64,000 nt of DNA, taken from the NCBI GenBank assembly GCA_945869675.1, contig CAMBPS010000002.1:1-64000 (forward strand). The letters run 5' to 3'. The notes under the pieces are model-generated. The model was not told the DNA's origin. It did not search any database and saw only the letters and a program-made list of their open reading frames with translations. Positions within the stretch are counted from its first letter, which is position 1. The number at the start of each line of letters is the position of its first letter. The position numbers and the translations under genes are program-made. This DNA comes from Prosthecobacter debontii. GTDB taxonomy: Bacteria; Verrucomicrobiota; Verrucomicrobiia; Verrucomicrobiales; Verrucomicrobiaceae. Shown here one piece after another: positions 3,210 through 62,676 of the stretch.

Positions 3210-3358
3210 CAATAAAGAGTGGAGATTCATACCGTCTCACCTTGCCGCGGGCACGGCAAGGACTTGCTTGTCTGCCAACAACATTTCCCGCACTTGGCTG
3301 TAGCGAACGGGCGCTGCGCGTACCTATATTTCGGTCAAAACGAAGCCACCAACGAGGA

Positions 3359-5626
3359 TTAAGGCGACTGAAGCCGATCAGGCACATTGTTGTTGTCACG
3401 ATCCAAGGGCAGCGGGTCATCGAGGTCTTTGCGGCCATCGCCATCGTCGTCGCCGCCGGGCTGGAGCCATGTGCCTGCGGCGGGCATCCATTCCTTTTTC
3501 AATCCAAGTGCACACCAGAGGTGCTGTGCGGCCTCGGCGCGGGTGACGTTGCGCGTGCCGAAGTCTGACAAAGATTTCGCCACGGGCAGGCCAAGACGTT
3601 TCAGCCATTCGGCAAGTGTGGCGCGTGTGGCTTTAGCATCCGGGGTGAAACGCGCCGCAGTGGGCTGGAAGTCGCCCCAGGTGACCATCGCCTCGATGGA
3701 AATGCGATCAGGATCATCGGCTGACACATCGGCATACACCGGCTTGTCATGATGCGGCCAGTCCTTGGCGTCTGGCAAGGCGCGGTACATTCGAGCGAGC
3801 ACGCGGGCGAGTTCGCGGCGGGTCATGGGTTGATCAGGCTTGAAAAACAAACTTTCCGCATCGGGCTGCCAGATGCCGCGCACGGACAGCATGTTTGCGG
3901 CTTCAAAGTGAAGATCATCGGGCGCGAGATCATGCCAGGGCCAGAGCAGGATGCCAGGACCGCCCGTGCCGCGCACAAGGCGCAGTTGCAGTTCGCGCAC
4001 CTTTGCCACATCGCTGGTGACCTCACGCGGCTCGATGCCATCTCGCAGACTCAGCCAGGCGAGCGTGGCTCCTGCTTGGCCGACGTGCATCATTTGGCCA
4101 TGCAATCGAATCGCGGACTGCACGACGCTGCTGACACCGATGTTTTTTCCCGCACCGATCAAGCCCTTCATCTCCACGGGCACGAGTCCACGCAGTGGGA
4201 AGGTGGAGCGATCCGTGTCCGTGTGCCAGCCACGTGTGGGTGTCATGATGTTGCGCCACGGGCCGTTGCGCGATCCGGCGACAAAGCCGCGACGAGTGGG
4301 ATGAAAGTCGATGTTAAACTGGTAGCCGAAGATCCCGTCCGTTGGCAGCACCTTGGCCCACATCGGTTCGCGAGTGGCGGCGCGGATGTCTTGCTCGCGC
4401 AGCATGTAGAGTGCTTCGAGGCGCAGGCCTTCGCGGATGTAGGGCTTCGGCGGCAAACGATCCGCCGTGCCGAACTCGTCCGTGAGCTGCATGTAGCGAA
4501 AGGATTGCGGGAAGTCCCCCACGCGATCATGCACGGCTGTTTGCAGATGGTACAGCATACCGAGCGCATGCTGCTTCACGTCATCGAAGATGATCCGGCG
4601 TTGCGCGGGCGTGAGTTCGACGATGTTCTTCTTCGATGCGCCAGGCTCCGTCTTTTCCAGCGCATCCACGACACGCTGCGGGAGTTGGCACAGCGGATAA
4701 TCCTGCGTGGGGTAGTTCAGAAAGGTAGCCTCGGTGCCCGGCGCGAAACCATTGTGCCAGCGATCCACGAGACGGCGGTGCGTGTAAGGGCTGTTGCCGC
4801 TCGGCGAATAAATGCCGCCGCTCATGTCGCTGTCCACCCACGGCGCTAGCTTGTCGAGCCCAGCGAAGGAGAGCGGGTGATAAGTCTCAGGCTTCGTGAT
4901 GGTCGCATCTTTGCCGCCCGTCTCTCGCAGCACCAGGCACCACGACATGGGATTCATCTCCTGCGGTCCCGCCTCATCAAAAGCCTCCGGCGCACTGGCT
5001 TCGCCAAAGCGTGCTTTCAAATCCGGCCCCGCGCCATGCTTCGCGCCACTGAGGCGAATCACATCGCCCCAATCGCTCGCATCCATCGTGAGACGAGCGT
5101 TGATCTGCATACGCTCCGCCCCGCCTTTCGTCGGCTCAAACTCCGCTCCGGTGACACGGCCCTCTTTGACCATCACCTTCATCGGCTGCCAACCGCGCAC
5201 GATGCGCAAGGACCCACCATCGACAGACGGCTTCACCAGTTCCTCGAAGATCTTCGCAGCCGCCGCAGGCTCGATGGTTTCCGTGCCGCAAAAGGAATTC
5301 CCCGGAGTCGCCATGCCATACGTGAGCGAGTTGTGCGCACGGATACGACGCAGCACCTCAAGGAAGAGTCCACTGCGAGGAAAGTTCGTTCGGGTGCCAT
5401 TCACCACCGTCCATTCATCTGGGCAACCCACGCCCTCCGCGCTGAACTGTCCACCGAGCCAATCAATGTCATTCACCAGCACGATCTTCTTCACGCCCAG
5501 TCGCGCCGCCTGCACCGCCGCCGCGCAGGCGGATTCATTGCCGCCGACAATGAGGAGATCTGCCTCAATGACCTCGGCAGGCAAGAGACTGGGTAAGAGT
5601 AGGAGAGGCAGAAGGAGTTTCATCAT
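3359..5626 (-). CDS. FAD-dependent oxidoreductase with C-terminal SLH-like segments and Asp-rich Ca-binding motif
   Basis: MMKLLLPLLLLPSLLPAEVIEADLLIVGGNESACAAAVQAARLG (signal + Rossmann), FAD_oxidored-like body; C-term MTRRELARVLARMYRALPDAKDW...YADV and DDDGDGRKDLDDPLPLDRDNNNVPD. Confidence 0.85.
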   Translation of the reverse strand: MMKLLLPLLLLPSLLPAEVIEADLLIVGGNESACAAAVQAARLGVKKIVLVNDIDWLGGQFSAEGVGCPDEWTVVNGTRTNFPRSGLFLEVLRRIRAHNSLTYGMATPGNSFCGTETIEPAAAAKIFEELVKPSVDGGSLRIVRGWQPMKVMVKEGRVTGAEFEPTKGGAERMQINARLTMDASDWGDVIRLSGAKHGAGPDLKARFGEASAPEAFDEAGPQEMNPMSWCLVLRETGGKDATITKPETYHPLSFAGLDKLAPWVDSDMSGGIYSPSGNSPYTHRRLVDRWHNGFAPGTEATFLNYPTQDYPLCQLPQRVVDALEKTEPGASKKNIVELTPAQRRIIFDDVKQHALGMLYHLQTAVHDRVGDFPQSFRYMQLTDEFGTADRLPPKPYIREGLRLEALYMLREQDIRAATREPMWAKVLPTDGIFGYQFNIDFHPTRRGFVAGSRNGPWRNIMTPTRGWHTDTDRSTFPLRGLVPVEMKGLIGAGKNIGVSSVVQSAIRLHGQMMHVGQAGATLAWLSLRDGIEPREVTSDVAKVRELQLRLVRGTGGPGILLWPWHDLAPDDLHFEAANMLSVRGIWQPDAESLFFKPDQPMTRRELARVLARMYRALPDAKDWPHHDKPVYADVSADDPDRISIEAMVTWGDFQPTAARFTPDAKATRATLAEWLKRLGLPVAKSLSDFGTRNVTRAEAAQHLWCALGLKKEWMPAAGTWLQPGGDDDGDGRKDLDDPLPLDRDNNNVPDRLQSP

Positions 5627-34476: not shown

Positions 34477-34549
34477 AAAATAAGGGTCTGTCCCTTTATA
34501 AAACGGATGCAGACAACGGCTCGCAAAATAAGGGTCTGTCCCTTTATAA
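34477..34549. repeat. Two identical 25-bp repeats upstream of RAYT gene
   Basis: AAAATAAGGGTCTGTCCCTTTATAA at 34477..34501 and 34525..34549; each has AAGGG-TCTGT-CCCTT dyad symmetry. Confidence 0.9.
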
Positions 34550-34592: not shown

Positions 34593-35663
34593 ATGCGTCA
34601 GCGTCGTCTCAAGGCTCCCGCCAACTCCTATTCCGATACTGCTTTTTACCACTGCATCTCTAGGGTGGTGAACAGGGATTTTGTTTTCGGAGACGATGAG
34701 CGGGAGGAGTTTGTGCGGCTCATGCGCGTTTATGAGCGGCTCTGCGGTGTGCGGGTGGTGACATATTGTGTCATGTCCAATCACTTTCATTTGCTGCTGG
34801 GCGTGCCAAAAAAGCCTGACGTAATGCCTTCGAATGGAGAACTGATCGCGACAGTGAGGGCTTCACTAGGGCTTCTCGCAGCGACGAATCTGGAGTATGA
34901 CTTGAAACAGGCGGCGAAGATCAAATCGACCCCATGGGAGGAAGAGATCCGGGAACGTTATCTCCGGCGCATGTGGGATGTGTCCTCTTTCATGAAGACC
35001 TTAAAACAAAGGTTTACCCAGTGGTTCAATCGAAGGCACAAGCGGAAAGGCACGCTCTGGGAGGATCGCTTCCGCAGTGTGCTGGTGCAGTCAGCAAGCG
35101 GGCCTGTGGCGGCAATGGCAGCCTACATTGATCTCAATCCGATCCGCGCAAATATGGTGGAAGATCCGCAGGAATATCGCTGGAGCGGTTACGGAGCGGC
35201 GATGGGCGGTGATGCGCTGGCGACCGAAGGACTACATGAGATCGACAAGATCAGACACTCAGAAATGAATCCGGAATCGGCCGAGTCTTCAGTCAAACCA
35301 ATGCTGCGACGCTCAGCGGTCGAGGTGCTGGAAGACTACCGGATGCTGCTTTATAGCCGAGGTGAGGAACGGGGTGTGGCAAAGGATGGATCTGCGCTTA
35401 AAAAAGGCTTCACGAGAGAAGAATCCCAACAAGTGATTACTGAGGGCGGACGACTTCCCAGATCCGTCTATCTGCGATGCCGCGTGAGATATTTCACGGA
35501 TGGAGCCGTGATTGGGAGCCGAGATTTCGTTAATGAAGTATTCACGAATCTCAAAGAGCGTTTTGGAGAGAACCGAAAGACCGGCGCACGCCTAATGCGA
35601 GGCCTAGCAAAAGACGAAGGACTCTACGCGATGCGTGATTTAAAGCGAGATGCGGTGGGATAA
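34593..35663 (+). mobile_element. REP-associated tyrosine transposase (RAYT, Y1/HUH superfamily)
   Basis: YHCISRVVNRDFVFGDDEREEFVRLM; VMSNHFHLLLGV (HxH); GTLWEDRFRSVLV; AAYIDLNPIRANMV (catalytic Tyr region). Confidence 0.95.
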
Positions 35664-56241: not shown

Positions 56242-57528
56242 TCAGGCCACAATCTCCTTCAAAACACCCGAGCTGTCACCGTGACGCTCGACATTGACAC
56301 CAATGCCATGAAGCATCGTCAGCCAGGTGTTGCACAAGGGCGTGTCCTTTGGCGCGACGATGTTGTGGCCGAGCTTGAGACCAGCGCCACCACCGGTGAG
56401 TAGCGTGGGGCAATTGTCGAGGTTGTGCTCGGTGCGGATATTGCTGCCATAGGCCAGCGCGACGTGATCGAAGAGGCGACTGCCATCGGCTTCCTTTGTG
56501 GCTTTGAGCTTGTCGATGAGTCCGGCGAGGAGTTCGCTTTGCGTTAGATCGCGCTTTTGGGAGGCCGCGAACTTTTCGCCCATGGTCGAATGGTAGTGAC
56601 TCATGTCATGAGGGGCCACTTTAATGCCGATGCTCGTCATCAGCGTGCTCACTGGCTGCCGATAGGTCAGCACGCGGGTGCTGTCGGTCTGCATCGCGGC
56701 GATGATGATGTCATACATGATCTTGATCTCCTCTTTGCCTGCGAGGCCTTCCTGCGGCTGAGGGATCGGAGCCTTCGGCTGCGGCACACCGATCCATTGC
56801 TCGTCTTTGCTGAGACGTGTCTCGATGTCGCGGATGCCTTGGAAGTATTCGTCGAGCTTGGCCTTATCGTTTTTGCCGAGGTCTCGCTGCATCGCCTTCG
56901 CGTTCTCCATCACCGTGTCGAGCACGCTACGCTTCTGCGCCAGCATGGCCTTCTGTTGCTCGATGGGCGTCGTGTCTTTCGAGAAGAGCCGATGAAACGC
57001 CTCCACGGGGCCTTTGTGACCACCGATGGGTTTTCCACTCACATCCCAAGCCATCGAAAGCCCCGGCCCGTGTCCAGAGGCCTCCGCATTCTCGCTGCCA
57101 TTCAGTTGCAGGGAGGCAAATCGCGTATCCATGCCCAGCTTCGCTGCCGCCACCTGATCTGCCGAGATGCTGTTGTGAAAGGTCTGCCCCGGCTCCGCGA
57201 AACGATTTGCACCCGTGAGCCACATCGTGCTGCCCCAGTGGCCTTCGTTCGAGTATTTGTTCCAAAGCCCCTGCACCACCGTGAAGTCCGCCTTGTGCCT
57301 TGCCAACGGCTTCAAACCCTCCGGCAGCACGTAGTCCTTGCCCGTCTGCTTGATATCCGGAAACCACGTCTCCGTGGTGATGCCCCAACCGAAGCCAAGG
57401 AACACCAACCGCTTCGGCGGTGCCACAGGAGTCGCTGCTGAAGCAAAGCGACGAAAGCCCAGCGACTCAAGCGCAGGCAAGGCAATTAGTGAGGAACTGG
57501 ACTGGAGGAAGTGACGGCGATTTTTCAT
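56242..57528 (-). CDS. DUF1552 domain-containing protein (paralog a)
   Basis: MKNRRHFLQSSSSLIALPALESLGFRRFA; LPEGLKPLARHKADFTVVQGL; ends DTPLCNTWLTMLHGIGVNVERHGDSSGVLKEIVA. Confidence 0.92.
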   Translation of the reverse strand: MKNRRHFLQSSSSLIALPALESLGFRRFASAATPVAPPKRLVFLGFGWGITTETWFPDIKQTGKDYVLPEGLKPLARHKADFTVVQGLWNKYSNEGHWGSTMWLTGANRFAEPGQTFHNSISADQVAAAKLGMDTRFASLQLNGSENAEASGHGPGLSMAWDVSGKPIGGHKGPVEAFHRLFSKDTTPIEQQKAMLAQKRSVLDTVMENAKAMQRDLGKNDKAKLDEYFQGIRDIETRLSKDEQWIGVPQPKAPIPQPQEGLAGKEEIKIMYDIIIAAMQTDSTRVLTYRQPVSTLMTSIGIKVAPHDMSHYHSTMGEKFAASQKRDLTQSELLAGLIDKLKATKEADGSRLFDHVALAYGSNIRTEHNLDNCPTLLTGGGAGLKLGHNIVAPKDTPLCNTWLTMLHGIGVNVERHGDSSGVLKEIVA

Positions 57529-57562: not shown

Positions 57563-60500
57563 CTATTTCCTGTGAAATTCTTTGCTGGAAGCCAGTGCGA
57601 TAAAAAACTCCTTCACCGCAAAATCTTTCGCTTTGGCTTTTTTGACAATGTCATCCGCAAGCGCGGCATCGGTGAAGCCATAGGGCCTGCCAAGCGCATA
57701 CTCGATGAGCGCCTCGGTAAAACCTCTCGCGAAATTTCCGCTCTGGTCAGCGATTTGATCGCGGAGGTCGAAGTAGGTTTGGAAAGTGGGGCCGTTGTGG
57801 AATTGGCCGGCGGGGTCGATGGGCCAGTCTTTTTTGGTTTTGGGGTCGTGATCGATTGCCCGCCATTTGCCGGCAGCGTTGAAGTTTTCCAGGCCGAAGC
57901 CGATGGGGTCGATCTTGCGATGGCATTGCAAGCACTGCGGCTCTTCTTGATGGGCGAGGAGATGCTCACGCGGGCTGATGGGTTTGCCGGCGAGGCGGTC
58001 GAGCTGCGGGACGTTGGGCGGGGCGGGCGGTGGCGGGTTGTGCAGGAGTTTGCGCAGCACCCAGGCACCGCGTTCGACCGGGCTGGTGCGTTCGCCATTG
58101 CTGCCCATGGCGAGGATGGCAGCCATGCCGAGCAGGCCGCCGCGTGGGGAGTTGGCGGGGAGTTTGACCTTTTGAAACGCATCGCCGCTGATGCCTTCGA
58201 TACCGTAGTAGGTGGCGAGCAGACCGTTGACGTGGATTTCGTCGCTCTTGAGCAATTTCGTGAGGCTGCCGTTGTTGCGCAGCAGGTGGGCGAAGGTTTC
58301 ATAGACCTCGCGGCGGGCGGCGGCCTTGGCGCTTTCGTCGAAGTCGCGGAACTGTTTGGTGTCGAACTGAAAGAAATCGAGACGGTCCATGCCGAGCCAT
58401 TGATGCACGAAACCGCTAACAAACTCGTCCGCCTTCGGGCTGTCGATGAAGCGATCCACCTCGCGGGCGATGACTTCGGGTTTCGATAGATCTGCTTCGA
58501 GCAGTGGTTCATCCGGTGGAGCGCTCCAGAGGAAGTAGGACAGACGTGAGGCGAGTTCGGGAGGTGACAGCGATCTCGGCCTTTCATCTTTTACCCCCAA
58601 CCTTTTACCAGCCTCGTCTTTTGGTAAAAGATTCGGGGTAAAAGATTGGGGACCCGTTTCCTGAAGATACAAAAACCCCGGCGAGGCCAGAATGACGCTC
58701 AAAGGCTCGCAGATGGCCTTATCGAAGCTGTCTCCGGCTTTGAGGTGTGTTGCATGCAAAATCGTCAATTTGTTCAAAAAGGCTGCGGAAGGCGTTTTGC
58801 CGCGAAAGGCACGTTTAGCGAAGGTTTCGAGCACTTGGCGTGCATTCGTCTCACCTGTAGCGAGCACGGGTGGAAAGCTTGTTTTGGCATTCGCGGGCGC
58901 GAGCGGGCCTTCGTATTCGATCCAGTCGATCCACAGCACGGGATCGCGCTGTTTGGCATCGGTGATCAATCGAGTGCGACCAGGCAGGCTGATGGTTTCT
59001 TTTTTCAGCGGGCGCTTTTCGAAGAGCACAAACTTCCGTGGGCCACCGGCGACGATCTTGAAAGGAAGCTCGATGACCTCAGGCTGGTCGAGCGTGTCGG
59101 TGATTTGTTTGTTCGCGAGGAAGGTGCGGTCGTCTTTGTCGATGGGGCTGGCTTCGACAAAGGTGAGAAACGCCCGTTCGCTCGGTATGTCCGGCACGCG
59201 ACCGATCTTCACGCGCATCACGTAGTCGCCGGACGCGAGGTCGGCGGGCAGGTCGATAGCGTATTCGCAGGTTTCCTGCATGGTGTTGTCGAGAAAGAGG
59301 CCCGTCTTCGACAGCGGTCGATCAAGGTATTGCTGGAACCAGCGGTTGTTGCTGTCCCACACGACCTTGGCGAACTCGGCGTGCGATTTGTCGGTGAAGT
59401 CGAACTCCTTCAGCCGCTTCTCATCACCGCCAGCGGCCTTCCACTTGGCGTATTGCTCATTGAGATACTTGAAGCGCAAATGCCCGCGCTCGACCTCCGC
59501 GCGGCGTTTCTCCGGCTCGATGCGCTCAACTTTGGCGATGGGCGCTTGCTTCACGATCGGGCCTTCCCACTCCACCCAATCGATCCACAACGCGGAGGGA
59601 GGTCCCACGCCGGTGGCTTTCTGCGCAGCGGTGTAGAGTTCGTGATCGAGCTTCACATCCCGCTTCTCGCGCAGCACAAAGGTTCGAGGACCATCGGAAG
59701 CGAGGCTCACCGGCACCTCAATGATCTGCGGTGCATCGGTGGTGCCGCTGATTTGGAACGTTTGCATCAATGTGAAGTCTTCATCGCCCGCCTTACGACT
59801 GCCGAGCGCGACGAAGTGCTGCTCCTTCGGCGTGCCCTTCACCGCACCAATACGGAAACGCAGCAGGTAGTCGCCCGGCTCGGCTTTTTCGACCTCGTGC
59901 TTCGTTTTGAGCCAGCCGGAGGGCTGCTCCGGTGGCAGCGTGATGACCTCTTCCTTGTGGACGTTGTAGATCGTCAAATACGCGCCAGTCTTGGTGAGCG
60001 GATCGTTCAAGTAACGCTCAAAACTCGGCCCATGCTGCTCAAAGCTACGGATGCGGAACTTCGCCTCCTGCTCGTCCGGGATTCCCTTCTGCGGCTGCTT
60101 GGTCTCCATGAACTTTTTCGCCGCCTCGTAACCACCTTTGAAGTAGCCCTTGTAAGTGCCGCCGACCATCGCGTTCGCATGCAGCTCGACCTCGCGACGT
60201 TGTTTGATCGTACTAGCGATGGGCTTGGCTGCACTCGCGCTCGCCACCTCGATCCAATCAATCCACAGCGCGAACTCCGGTCCGATGCCGTTGCGCTTCT
60301 TTGCTTCGGCAAAGAGGCGATGCGCGACCTCCTCGGACTCGTAGCTGCCTTTCTCCTGGAAGAAGAAGCCGTGGCCGTTGAGCGGCGAAAACTTCAGCGG
60401 AATCTCGATCACCTGCGGCTTCTCCATCGTGCCGGTGACCTGATGGCTACTCGTCACCGCACGCACGCCGCTGTCATGCTGCGAGCCAAACTCAACGAAG

Positions 60501-61651
60501 TGCCGCTCCTTGGTCGTGTTGCTCGTGGCCGCGATGCGCGCACGCACCACGTAGTCGCCCGCTGGCCAGTCACCAGGGATGCGGAAGGGCTGATACGGAT
60601 TCGCGAACACATCCTCGATGGTCAGGAAGCTGCCCGTCTTCGCCGCCGGATGCGCCAGGTAAGCACGCTGCTGCGGCACGGAATGCACCCAGTTCCGCCG
60701 ACCCTGTTCGTCCGCATGCACCGCATCCGTGAAACCAAAGTCCACGGGTGAGGACGCGCCGGTGATCCTCTGCCACGCGAAGAAGAGATGCGTTGCATTA
60801 CCTTTCTTCTCCGCGCGGATCTGCGCGACGACATCTGCATTTTCAGGCCTCGCCGCCGCTGCATTCACCGCCGCCGTCCACTTCTCGTAGCGCTCATGCG
60901 CATCCGTGCGCTCCTTTAGCGACACCCCGATGCGAGCATTCCGCTCCTCCGCCTCCACATGCATCAAGCGCGACTTGGCGGCCGTCGGCACAATGAATCG
61001 TGCGAAGTGCTCATCCAGCGCCTGACGTCCGAGCGCGAGGTATTGCTCGAATTGATCCGATGACATGAAGAGCGACGATCCCACGGTATCAAAAGTGCCC
61101 GCGCCACCATCGGCAGGCAGTTCGTTCACCCGCAAGTCCACGCCGAGCAGATCGCGGATCGTGTTCTTGTATTCACGCCGGTTCAGTCGACGCATCGCGA
61201 TCTTGCCACCGCTGTCGCTCAGCACCGCTCGCGCCGTCACGAGCATGCGCGAGAGGTCATCAAGGAAATCCGTCTTCGCCGCCGCATCAGGCTGCTTTTC
61301 ATCCTCAGGCGGCATGTCGCCCGAGTTGATCGAGTTCAGCACCTTTTGCCACAGATCCGCCTTTTCGACCGTGTCCACGCTGAACGCGATGTCATCGAGC
61401 CGCACCTTCCCCTTCTGCTTCTCGGCGTTGTGACAGTTCAGGCAGTTGTCTTTGAAAAAGGCACGGTGTTTGGCGTCGAGTGTGGCTTGAGGCTGCTGGG
61501 CAACGGATGCGCAGGAAAGTAGGCCCAGGGCTATGAGGATGGCTTTTGGCTGGTAAAAGGCTTGGGGTAAAAGATTGGAGAATGGATTGAAACCTTTTAC
61601 CCCCAATCTTTTACCAGCCAGTTCAATGTGTATCATTTCGAGGCCGTTCAT
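57563..61651 (-). CDS. PSCyt1 + DUF1587/DUF1592/DUF1588/DUF1585 protein with three internal beta-sandwich-like repeats and repeat-encoded insertions
   Basis: FFKDNCLNCHNAEKQKGKVRLD; MRRLNRREYKNTIRDLLGVDLRVNELPADGG; LASRLSYFLWSAPPDEPL; QCHRKIDPIGFGLENFNAAGKWR. First ATG free of the upstream GxxExxY ORF at 61651 (ATGA overlap). Confidence 0.9.
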   Translation of the reverse strand: MNGLEMIHIELAGKRLGVKGFNPFSNLLPQAFYQPKAILIALGLLSCASVAQQPQATLDAKHRAFFKDNCLNCHNAEKQKGKVRLDDIAFSVDTVEKADLWQKVLNSINSGDMPPEDEKQPDAAAKTDFLDDLSRMLVTARAVLSDSGGKIAMRRLNRREYKNTIRDLLGVDLRVNELPADGGAGTFDTVGSSLFMSSDQFEQYLALGRQALDEHFARFIVPTAAKSRLMHVEAEERNARIGVSLKERTDAHERYEKWTAAVNAAAARPENADVVAQIRAEKKGNATHLFFAWQRITGASSPVDFGFTDAVHADEQGRRNWVHSVPQQRAYLAHPAAKTGSFLTIEDVFANPYQPFRIPGDWPAGDYVVRARIAATSNTTKERHFVEFGSQHDSGVRAVTSSHQVTGTMEKPQVIEIPLKFSPLNGHGFFFQEKGSYESEEVAHRLFAEAKKRNGIGPEFALWIDWIEVASASAAKPIASTIKQRREVELHANAMVGGTYKGYFKGGYEAAKKFMETKQPQKGIPDEQEAKFRIRSFEQHGPSFERYLNDPLTKTGAYLTIYNVHKEEVITLPPEQPSGWLKTKHEVEKAEPGDYLLRFRIGAVKGTPKEQHFVALGSRKAGDEDFTLMQTFQISGTTDAPQIIEVPVSLASDGPRTFVLREKRDVKLDHELYTAAQKATGVGPPSALWIDWVEWEGPIVKQAPIAKVERIEPEKRRAEVERGHLRFKYLNEQYAKWKAAGGDEKRLKEFDFTDKSHAEFAKVVWDSNNRWFQQYLDRPLSKTGLFLDNTMQETCEYAIDLPADLASGDYVMRVKIGRVPDIPSERAFLTFVEASPIDKDDRTFLANKQITDTLDQPEVIELPFKIVAGGPRKFVLFEKRPLKKETISLPGRTRLITDAKQRDPVLWIDWIEYEGPLAPANAKTSFPPVLATGETNARQVLETFAKRAFRGKTPSAAFLNKLTILHATHLKAGDSFDKAICEPLSVILASPGFLYLQETGPQSFTPNLLPKDEAGKRLGVKDERPRSLSPPELASRLSYFLWSAPPDEPLLEADLSKPEVIAREVDRFIDSPKADEFVSGFVHQWLGMDRLDFFQFDTKQFRDFDESAKAAARREVYETFAHLLRNNGSLTKLLKSDEIHVNGLLATYYGIEGISGDAFQKVKLPANSPRGGLLGMAAILAMGSNGERTSPVERGAWVLRKLLHNPPPPAPPNVPQLDRLAGKPISPREHLLAHQEEPQCLQCHRKIDPIGFGLENFNAAGKWRAIDHDPKTKKDWPIDPAGQFHNGPTFQTYFDLRDQIADQSGNFARGFTEALIEYALGRPYGFTDAALADDIVKKAKAKDFAVKEFFIALASSKEFHRK
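58586..58646. repeat. Palindromic element copy A, inside DUF1592 CDS
   Basis: Left arm ATCTTTTACCCCCAACCTTTTACCA (58586..58610), right arm TGGTAAAAGATTCGGGGTAAAAGAT (58622..58646): 25-bp inverted repeat, 2 mismatches, 11-nt loop; each arm holds two GGTAAAAG-type units. Confidence 0.9.
61551..61616. repeat. Palindromic element copy B, at 5' end of DUF1592 CDS / 3' side of GxxExxY gene
   Basis: TGGTAAAAGGCTTGGGGTAAAAGATT (61551..61576) ... AACCTTTTACCCCCAATCTTTTACCA (61591..61616). Confidence 0.9.
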
Positions 61652-62433
61652 GAGAGAGTGGTGAAGCGAATCGAGGTTTGGGTGATATTGATCCACTGAA
61701 TCGCCTTGAGATTTGTATGTCGGAGCAGCCGGATGGCCTGACGCTCAAAGTCATCAAGCCTGTCCTGCAAAGCTGTCACTTTGAAAGCGACTCCTGGTGC
61801 GACGAGGCGCATGCGCTGATCCGCCAAATGACCTTTGGGGCCAATCACCGGCACTGGCACAAGCACCTTTTCGTCTCCTCCGAGGAAGTGGGTAATGGCC
61901 TCTTCGTAGAGTCCCGTTTCCAGGTCCGCGCCCCAATCGGCGATCAGAGGCATGAGAATATCGCGGAGAGCTTCCGCGCCAGCGGACTGAAGACTCCATC
62001 TGGCATCGTCAATGTGTGGGTTTTTCAGATCGACGAGTCTCGCCGGGCAATTGACGAACTCATGCCCGACAGACTCAGGGCGCATGTTGATGACCTTGCC
62101 GTGTGCGAGGTCGAGAAGGAGCAGATAGTTGAGCGTTTGGCCACGATGACGGGGATGAATCGCGTCCGCAGCCTTGAACTCGAAGAGGCCACTGCTGTTG
62201 ATCAGCACATCCACATAGTAAGTCTTCGAGAAGGCACCGTGCGTGACGATGATTTCCAACTCCAGCACTACGCCGCTCATTCGATCAGCGAGTTCCTTCT
62301 TGTAAACGATCTCGTCAAAGAAGCGACCGAAGTCATTGTGGATGGCGAAGACATGATCCATGACCTCACTGGAAAGCAGCTTGAACCGCTCCTGCGAGAT
62401 GCGGTTTGTTGGAATCGGGCAGTGAATTGGCAT
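61648..62433 (-). CDS. GxxExxY protein (PDDEXK_3-like nuclease fold)
   Basis: MPIHCPIPTNRISQERFKLLSSEVMDHVFAIHNDFGRFFDEIVYKKELADRM; VTHGAFSKTYYVDVLINSSGLFEFKAADAIHPRHRGQTLNYLLLLDLAHGKVINMRPESVGHEFVN; D...ExK motif VDVLINSSGLFEFK. Confidence 0.85.
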   Translation of the reverse strand: MPIHCPIPTNRISQERFKLLSSEVMDHVFAIHNDFGRFFDEIVYKKELADRMSGVVLELEIIVTHGAFSKTYYVDVLINSSGLFEFKAADAIHPRHRGQTLNYLLLLDLAHGKVINMRPESVGHEFVNCPARLVDLKNPHIDDARWSLQSAGAEALRDILMPLIADWGADLETGLYEEAITHFLGGDEKVLVPVPVIGPKGHLADQRMRLVAPGVAFKVTALQDRLDDFERQAIRLLRHTNLKAIQWINITQTSIRFTTLS

Positions 62434-62446
62434 TAGCGATGAAGGC

Positions 62447-62503
62447 CGGTAAAAGGTTAGGGGTAAAAGATTCAGAGATCCGATTTCAAGCTTCTACCAA
62501 CAG
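62447..62503. repeat. Palindromic element copy C (3' arm degraded), 5' side of GxxExxY gene
   Basis: CGGTAAAAGGTTAGGGGTAAAAGATTCAGAGATCCGATTTCAAGCTTCTACCAACAG; left arm intact, right arm lacks about one GGTAAAAG unit. Confidence 0.8.
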
Positions 62504-62597
62504 ATTTGGACTGCGTGGGCTAGGCAGACGGAGTGCAATTAGGGGTCCTGTTTGGCGATTGGCGAGTTTGGCAGTGGATGGGGATTGGTGATGAAGG

Positions 62598-62667
62598 CTG
62601 ATAAAAGGTTGGGGGTAAAAGATTCAGAGATTTGAGTTCCAATCTTTTACCCCAAATCTTTTACCAG
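62598..62667. repeat. Palindromic element copy D, downstream of DUF1552 paralog b
   Basis: CTGATAAAAGGTTGGGGGTAAAAGATT (62598..62624) ... AATCTTTTACCCCAAATCTTTTACCAG (62641..62667): 27-bp arms, 3 mismatches, 16-nt loop. Confidence 0.9.
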
Positions 62668-62676
62668 CAGATTCTG

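Follow-up and report, generated by a model that had tools for sequence, protein, structure and literature searches.

A palindromic element read in frame in the PSD5-PSD4 linker of a DUF1592-family protein from Verrucomicrobiaceae: probable single origin and a linker filled by several palindrome families

How does a strong DNA palindrome come to lie within the reading frame of a conserved protein, and what becomes of it there? The window considered here, 64,000 nucleotides that form part of a 4.04 Mb metagenome-assembled genome, raises this question in an open reading frame of the DUF1592 family (57563-61696, minus strand, 1377 residues) with the domain order PSCyt1-PSD3-PSD5-PSD4-PSCyt3-PSD2. 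The gene is followed downstream by a DUF1552-family gene of 428 residues (56242-57528, minus strand), and its nearest named relatives are in Verrucomicrobiaceae assemblies, several of which come, judged by their names, from lakes or ponds.

The palindrome, its empty sites and its dispersed relatives

Positions 58586-58646 of the minus strand (61 nt) form a palindrome, the linker form of a family designated A, that codes residues 1017-1037 and contributes SFTPNLLPKDEAGKRLGVKDE to the protein. Its arms (58586-58610 and 58622-58646) are 25 nt each and 92% complementary, with 11 nt between them, and the RNA of the coding strand folds at -35.1 kcal/mol (z -7.3), a value reached by 0 of 200 dinucleotide shuffles. 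In the linker form generally the arms are divergent and enclose a conserved, AAAAGAMGAGGCT-like loop of 13 nt. The PSD5/DUF1595 domain (58658-58843, minus strand, residues 952-1013) ends just N-terminal to the insert and the PSD4/DUF1592 domain (58199-58570, minus strand, residues 1043-1166) starts just past it. A sequence-only reading had placed a palindrome at these positions with the frame open on both sides; the arms and fold bear out its coordinates, and the open reading frame does continue through the palindrome, which is read in frame. A comparison of the domain with solved structures gave no match at E 0.01, and a PADLOC search for defence systems gave none either.

The palindrome is an insertion. 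In 46 homologues from Verrucomicrobia and Planctomycetes, exactly 34 residues make up the segment that runs from SPxF to RLSYFLWS; the window has 54 (+60 nt). The insert proposed by the sequence-only reading is therefore real, although its size is a net 20 residues (60 nt) relative to the empty linker, not about 22. The 34-residue linkers contain weak inverted repeats at best (score mean 5.6, maximum 8.5), and linkers of at least 44 residues score 10-23.5 in most members of family A and of two further families, B and C, described below. The cleanest empty and occupied pairs share one empty gene, L069: the A-bearing L123 differs from it by +60 nt, with flanking DNA 92% identical on both sides, and L068, which carries family C, by +30 nt between flanks of 96% and 93% identity. 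A more distant pair, L065 and L066, again differs by +60 nt (flanks 80% and 85% identical). No target-site duplication is visible in these pairs, which are 4-20% diverged. Orthologues missing just these residues had been named beforehand as the mark of an insertion, and residues shared by distant taxa as evidence against one; the former are present, and the distant taxa are without the residues.

Family A also occurs outside the linker, and its distribution there speaks for a mobile or dispersed element. The intergenic copies are found at the ends of genes, most of them as convergent pairs. The arm of the family, GGTAAAAGNTTNGGGGTAAAAGAT, consists of two direct repeats (period 14 nt), and two arms are usually joined convergently with about 16 nt between them and GCT...AGC at the flanks, the complete intergenic form being GCTGGTAAAAGATTNGGGGTAAAAGAT - about 16 nt - ATCTTTTACCCCNAATCTTTTACCAGC. 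Pattern searches, the source of all genome-wide counts of A, find arms in 19 of 96 related genomes. The highest count in one genome is 23 arms, and a reversed control pattern has 0 matches in the same genomes. All carriers belong to the genus of the window except G067, a genome of another family, and among 339 genomes of the order scanned for exact matches to the complete form, three have it, all within the genus. The window's own genome has nine arm matches, seven in a 4-kb cluster and two on another contig, where one (C3:77376) falls in a signal-peptide-like N-terminus, MKFPFFTANLLPALLFAGLASAATL. Three further copies in the window had gone unmentioned beside the one palindrome first described: a convergent copy at 61547-61620 (minus strand), in frame and immediately 5′ of the part of the host gene that codes the signal-peptide core AILIALGLLSCASVA; a single arm, or half copy, at 62448-62471 (plus strand), in the gap that separates the host gene from the DUF1552 gene upstream of it; and a complete convergent copy at 62597-62668, some 15 bp away from where the alignable part of that DUF1552 gene ends. 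The copy at 61547-61620 codes AGKRLGVKGFNPFSNLLPQAFYQP if translation starts upstream of it; relatives that do not have it begin MKRSFATLVLSLLGALPSHA, and the copy may be 5′ untranslated.

One linker, several palindromes

The same linker is filled in relatives by families B (TCGACAGGAGAATGGGGACAGAAGAAT ... ATTCTCCTGTCCCCATTCTCTTGTCGA) and C (GAAAGTGGCTTGAGCTTTAGCTCAAG ... CTTGGGCTAAAGCCCAAGCTACTTTC), both of which also occur elsewhere in the genus. The net gain at the linker is 60 nt for A, 42 nt for B and 30 nt for C, and since the full B and C elements are longer than these gains, they replaced part of the old linker. Two planctomycete homologues have longer linkers of other sequence. L110, from a Planctomyces sp., contains an inverted repeat read by eye as CGTGGGATAGGC-TTCC-AGCCTGTC ... 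GACAGGC-AGGA-TGCCTATCCCACG, which the automatic score missed because the arms are further apart than its 40-nt loop limit, and L121, from a member of the Planctomycetaceae, contains a weaker one (z 3.4). Judged from sequence, these inserts are apparently two further mobile palindrome families. One loop of fixed ancestral length has thus been filled by three families in one genus and apparently by two in Planctomycetes; with at least two, and probably four, palindrome families besides A, the linker is a recurrent landing site. The single insertion first reported stands as an insertion, but is one of several palindrome types at this position.

A separate observation concerns L083 (from position 1226 onward, genome G036), where a linker of 73 residues holds a GGCAAAAGAATGGGGGCAAAAGAAT palindrome with a sequence intermediate between A and B, after which comes a second insert, of low complexity. 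Perhaps A and B belong to a single superfamily as two of its branches.

The distribution of linker types conflicts with the gene tree built with the linker left out. A single clade is rejected for the carriers of A, of B and of C alike (AU p 8e-11, 4e-5 and 7e-5, respectively), and the tree calls for at least 13 changes of linker type, a figure that is indicative given low support in parts of the tree and the mosaic nature of the gene family. Because the family itself recombines, such counts alone cannot separate re-insertion from exchange of linkers. The distribution of the element is more telling: the loop-containing core of the linker form occurs in seven of 193 genomes, once in each and every time in a DUF1592 linker, so that this form probably arose once and then spread by recombination or transfer. 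Families B and C differ from it in sequence and arrangement, and so must have entered the linker separately.

The explanation we favor, with a probability of roughly 0.8, is that a small palindromic element of the dispersed family A landed in the flexible PSD5-PSD4 linker of an exported DUF1592-type protein and became fixed there in frame, adding 60 nt with the frame kept, and that the linker form had a single origin and spread later. A single insertion followed by recombination or transfer is the best account of A, and by this route the linker form would have passed from one paralogue group or species to another among the DUF1592 genes. The insert and its surroundings show less synonymous divergence than most of the gene does (two of 30 windows are as low). 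Recent exchange would agree with this, though the evidence is weak, and constraint is another possible cause. The placement of the dispersed copies counts against this explanation. Of 83 A clusters, 30 have a DUF1592 or DUF1552 gene no more than 250 bp away, far above the genome share of such genes, although the figure is inflated because the search pattern was derived from such copies and orthologous loci were counted separately; a purely random mobile element would not cluster in this way. A further, tentative proposal is that the linker is a true exchange site in which palindromes act as interchangeable cassettes swapped between paralogues and species by recombination. We consider this possible but doubtful; if true, such a site would provide variable loops on conserved exported proteins across Verrucomicrobia and Planctomycetes.

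The strongest competitor to a single origin is independent insertion of A into the linker in each lineage by site-preferring transposition. The carriers form no clade and include L123, a paralogue from another family at 57% identity (about 43% different), and B, C and the planctomycete elements must have entered the same linker separately, as this alternative would have it. However, all A linkers share the divergent arrangement and the 13-nt loop, a combination found nowhere else in the 193 genomes, and the dispersed A copies differ in their loops and, for the most part, have their arms arranged the other way round. The flanks GGTYCCC and GAAAGGCAGAGA are likewise common to the A linkers, in altered form even in L123. 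Repeated insertion is thus unlikely, and we retain a single origin for the linker form of A.

The primary mover would probably be a tyrosine (Y1/HUH) transposase acting in trans, by analogy with REP elements. Y1_Tnp genes are common in the genus (the family is present in 47 of 48 genomes), but among 76 Y1 loci of the genus, A-rich genomes included, none is flanked by A, B or C arms, a negative that counts against the favored explanation. In the window, a Y1_Tnp-family transposase gene (34593-35663, 356 residues) is closely preceded on its upstream side by two identical copies of AAAATAAGGGTCTGTCCCTTTATAA (34477-34501 and 34525-34549), a layout that resembles a TIR- or REP-associated transposase.

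Translation and tolerance of the insert

Several lines of evidence bear on the fate of the palindrome within the protein. In a set of five A carriers, pN/pS falls from 0.42 upstream of the insert and 0.38 within it to 0.13 in the 150 codons downstream, and the insert varies about as freely as the variable region that precedes it. The low downstream value indicates that the downstream domains are constrained, and the frame is free of stops. Since the protein 3′ of the insert is under purifying selection the palindrome is very probably translated. An AlphaFold2 model of the window's domain, built with 26 homologues, is of moderate confidence overall (mean pLDDT 64, pTM 0.61) and gives pLDDT below 50 for residues 109-139, a segment that includes the insert (117-137 in the model) and sits between confident helices at 91-104 and 145-156. 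The suggestion that structure prediction might reveal a loop is in line with this result. The linker would tolerate almost any stop-free peptide and so keep palindromes that elsewhere would destroy a gene. Because the arm GGTAAAAG... has stops in two of its three frames, only one frame can be fixed within a gene. The peptide itself is probably without function.

The palindrome might instead be kept as DNA or RNA, as a regulatory or mRNA-stability hairpin or a protein-binding site for the DUF1592-DUF1552 operon, with translation incidental. Copies are indeed concentrated at the ends of genes of these two families and the hairpins are very stable, but the stem is not preserved by compensatory change, no excess of compensatory substitutions being found in it, and two carriers (G013 and L095) have kept the length and lost the palindrome (inverted-repeat z 1.9 and 0.4). 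These two results are what a tolerated loop would show, and not what a maintained DNA or RNA structure would. Closely related genes moreover do without the palindrome, and Rfam reports nothing above its gathering score, the sub-threshold matches being to microRNA precursors and one sRNA family. Maintenance as a nucleic acid structure is on balance improbable, and we return to a translated, tolerated insert. An assembly artefact or a pseudogene is far less plausible still: the window is from a metagenome-assembled genome, as are most of the genomes analysed, yet the same in-frame insert is present in seven separate assemblies with open frames and purifying selection downstream. That the residues are an ordinary native linker, palindromic by chance, would suit the intact frame and conserved protein but is refuted by the empty sites, and runs against the fixed linker length of homologues, the fold z-score of -7.3 and the occurrence of the same 24-nt arms in intergenic DNA of many genomes.

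Relation to known palindromic elements and cases in other genes

Most known protein-coding palindromes are from Rickettsia or a small number of REP-rich genomes, usually as single frozen insertions. Rickettsia palindromic elements (RPEs) are repetitive palindromes of several unrelated families that are inserted in frame in protein genes and translated (PMC10969869; PMC3733652). Family A resembles them in lying in frame within a protein-coding gene, and the likeness drawn in the sequence-only reading is sound as far as in-frame insertion and read-through are concerned. The A copies are shorter, however, at 61-76 nt (61 in the linker, 72-74 elsewhere in the window) against about 100-150 nt for RPEs; they belong to another phylum and lie mostly at gene ends, and one linker is reused by several families. 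Any claim to a first case outside Rickettsia would fail, since Di Nocera et al. described in 2013 intragenic GTAG REP dimers in open reading frames of Opitutus terrae, also of the Verrucomicrobia, that are in frame and encode 20-30 residues (PMC3733652). Reuse of a site also has a precedent in recB, struck by REPs at about the same site in two Xanthomonas species (PMC3733652). The in-frame behavior is thus already known, also in Verrucomicrobia. As far as we have searched, within open-licence papers, what is new is family A and the way several families have repeatedly used one linker of otherwise fixed length, alleles of which are present in empty, intact and decayed form. These alleles offer a means to measure how selfish palindromes become protein, at what rate they decay, and whether recombination then spreads them.

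The three families differ in their likeness to other repeats. GTAG REPs and REPINs are hairpins of 20-40 nt with GTAG at one end and a cognate RAYT gene flanked by the same repeat. The arms of A are without the tag and are not self-pairing: a single arm, as a direct-repeat pair of 14-nt period, pairs only with an inverted partner, unlike a GTAG REP hairpin, and the 76 Y1_Tnp loci of the genus provide no cognate RAYT in that arrangement. Family C has a GTAG-tagged hairpin, GTAGCTTGGGCTTTAGCCCAAG (read by eye), like the GTAG REPs. Family B (GGGGACAG), with its arms as inverted dimers, fits the motif GGGGWSAS described for the terminal inverted repeats of TIRYT tyrosine transposases (TIRtron; PMC3733652). 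Family A reads GGGGTAAA and does not fit it, and for neither A nor B was a flanked transposase found. In being short, non-coding, dispersed and built of inverted repeats, these elements are like MITEs; they are unlike them in that no parent element and, at the above divergence of the pairs, no target-site duplication was identified.

In-frame palindromes in other proteins indicate that the phenomenon is general in the genus and extends beyond one gene. A GH63/MGH1-type protein carries a family B palindrome in frame (L242:3370-3413, residues 349-363), N-terminal to its catalytic domain. In three genomes, DUF1549/DUF1553 proteins have an in-frame pair of C elements that separates PSCyt1 from PSCyt2 (residues about 129-170), a position assigned by Pfam in L253 and L255 and by sequence in L254, and the GTAG-like repeat of family C is in frame within the DUF1552 domain of L251 and L252 (about 3355-3441). 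The DUF1592 proteins themselves vary in size in L030, L052, L054 and L055 (open frames of about 1100-1980 residues) and align piecewise, which suggests repeated or exchanged middle modules between PSD3 and PSD5.
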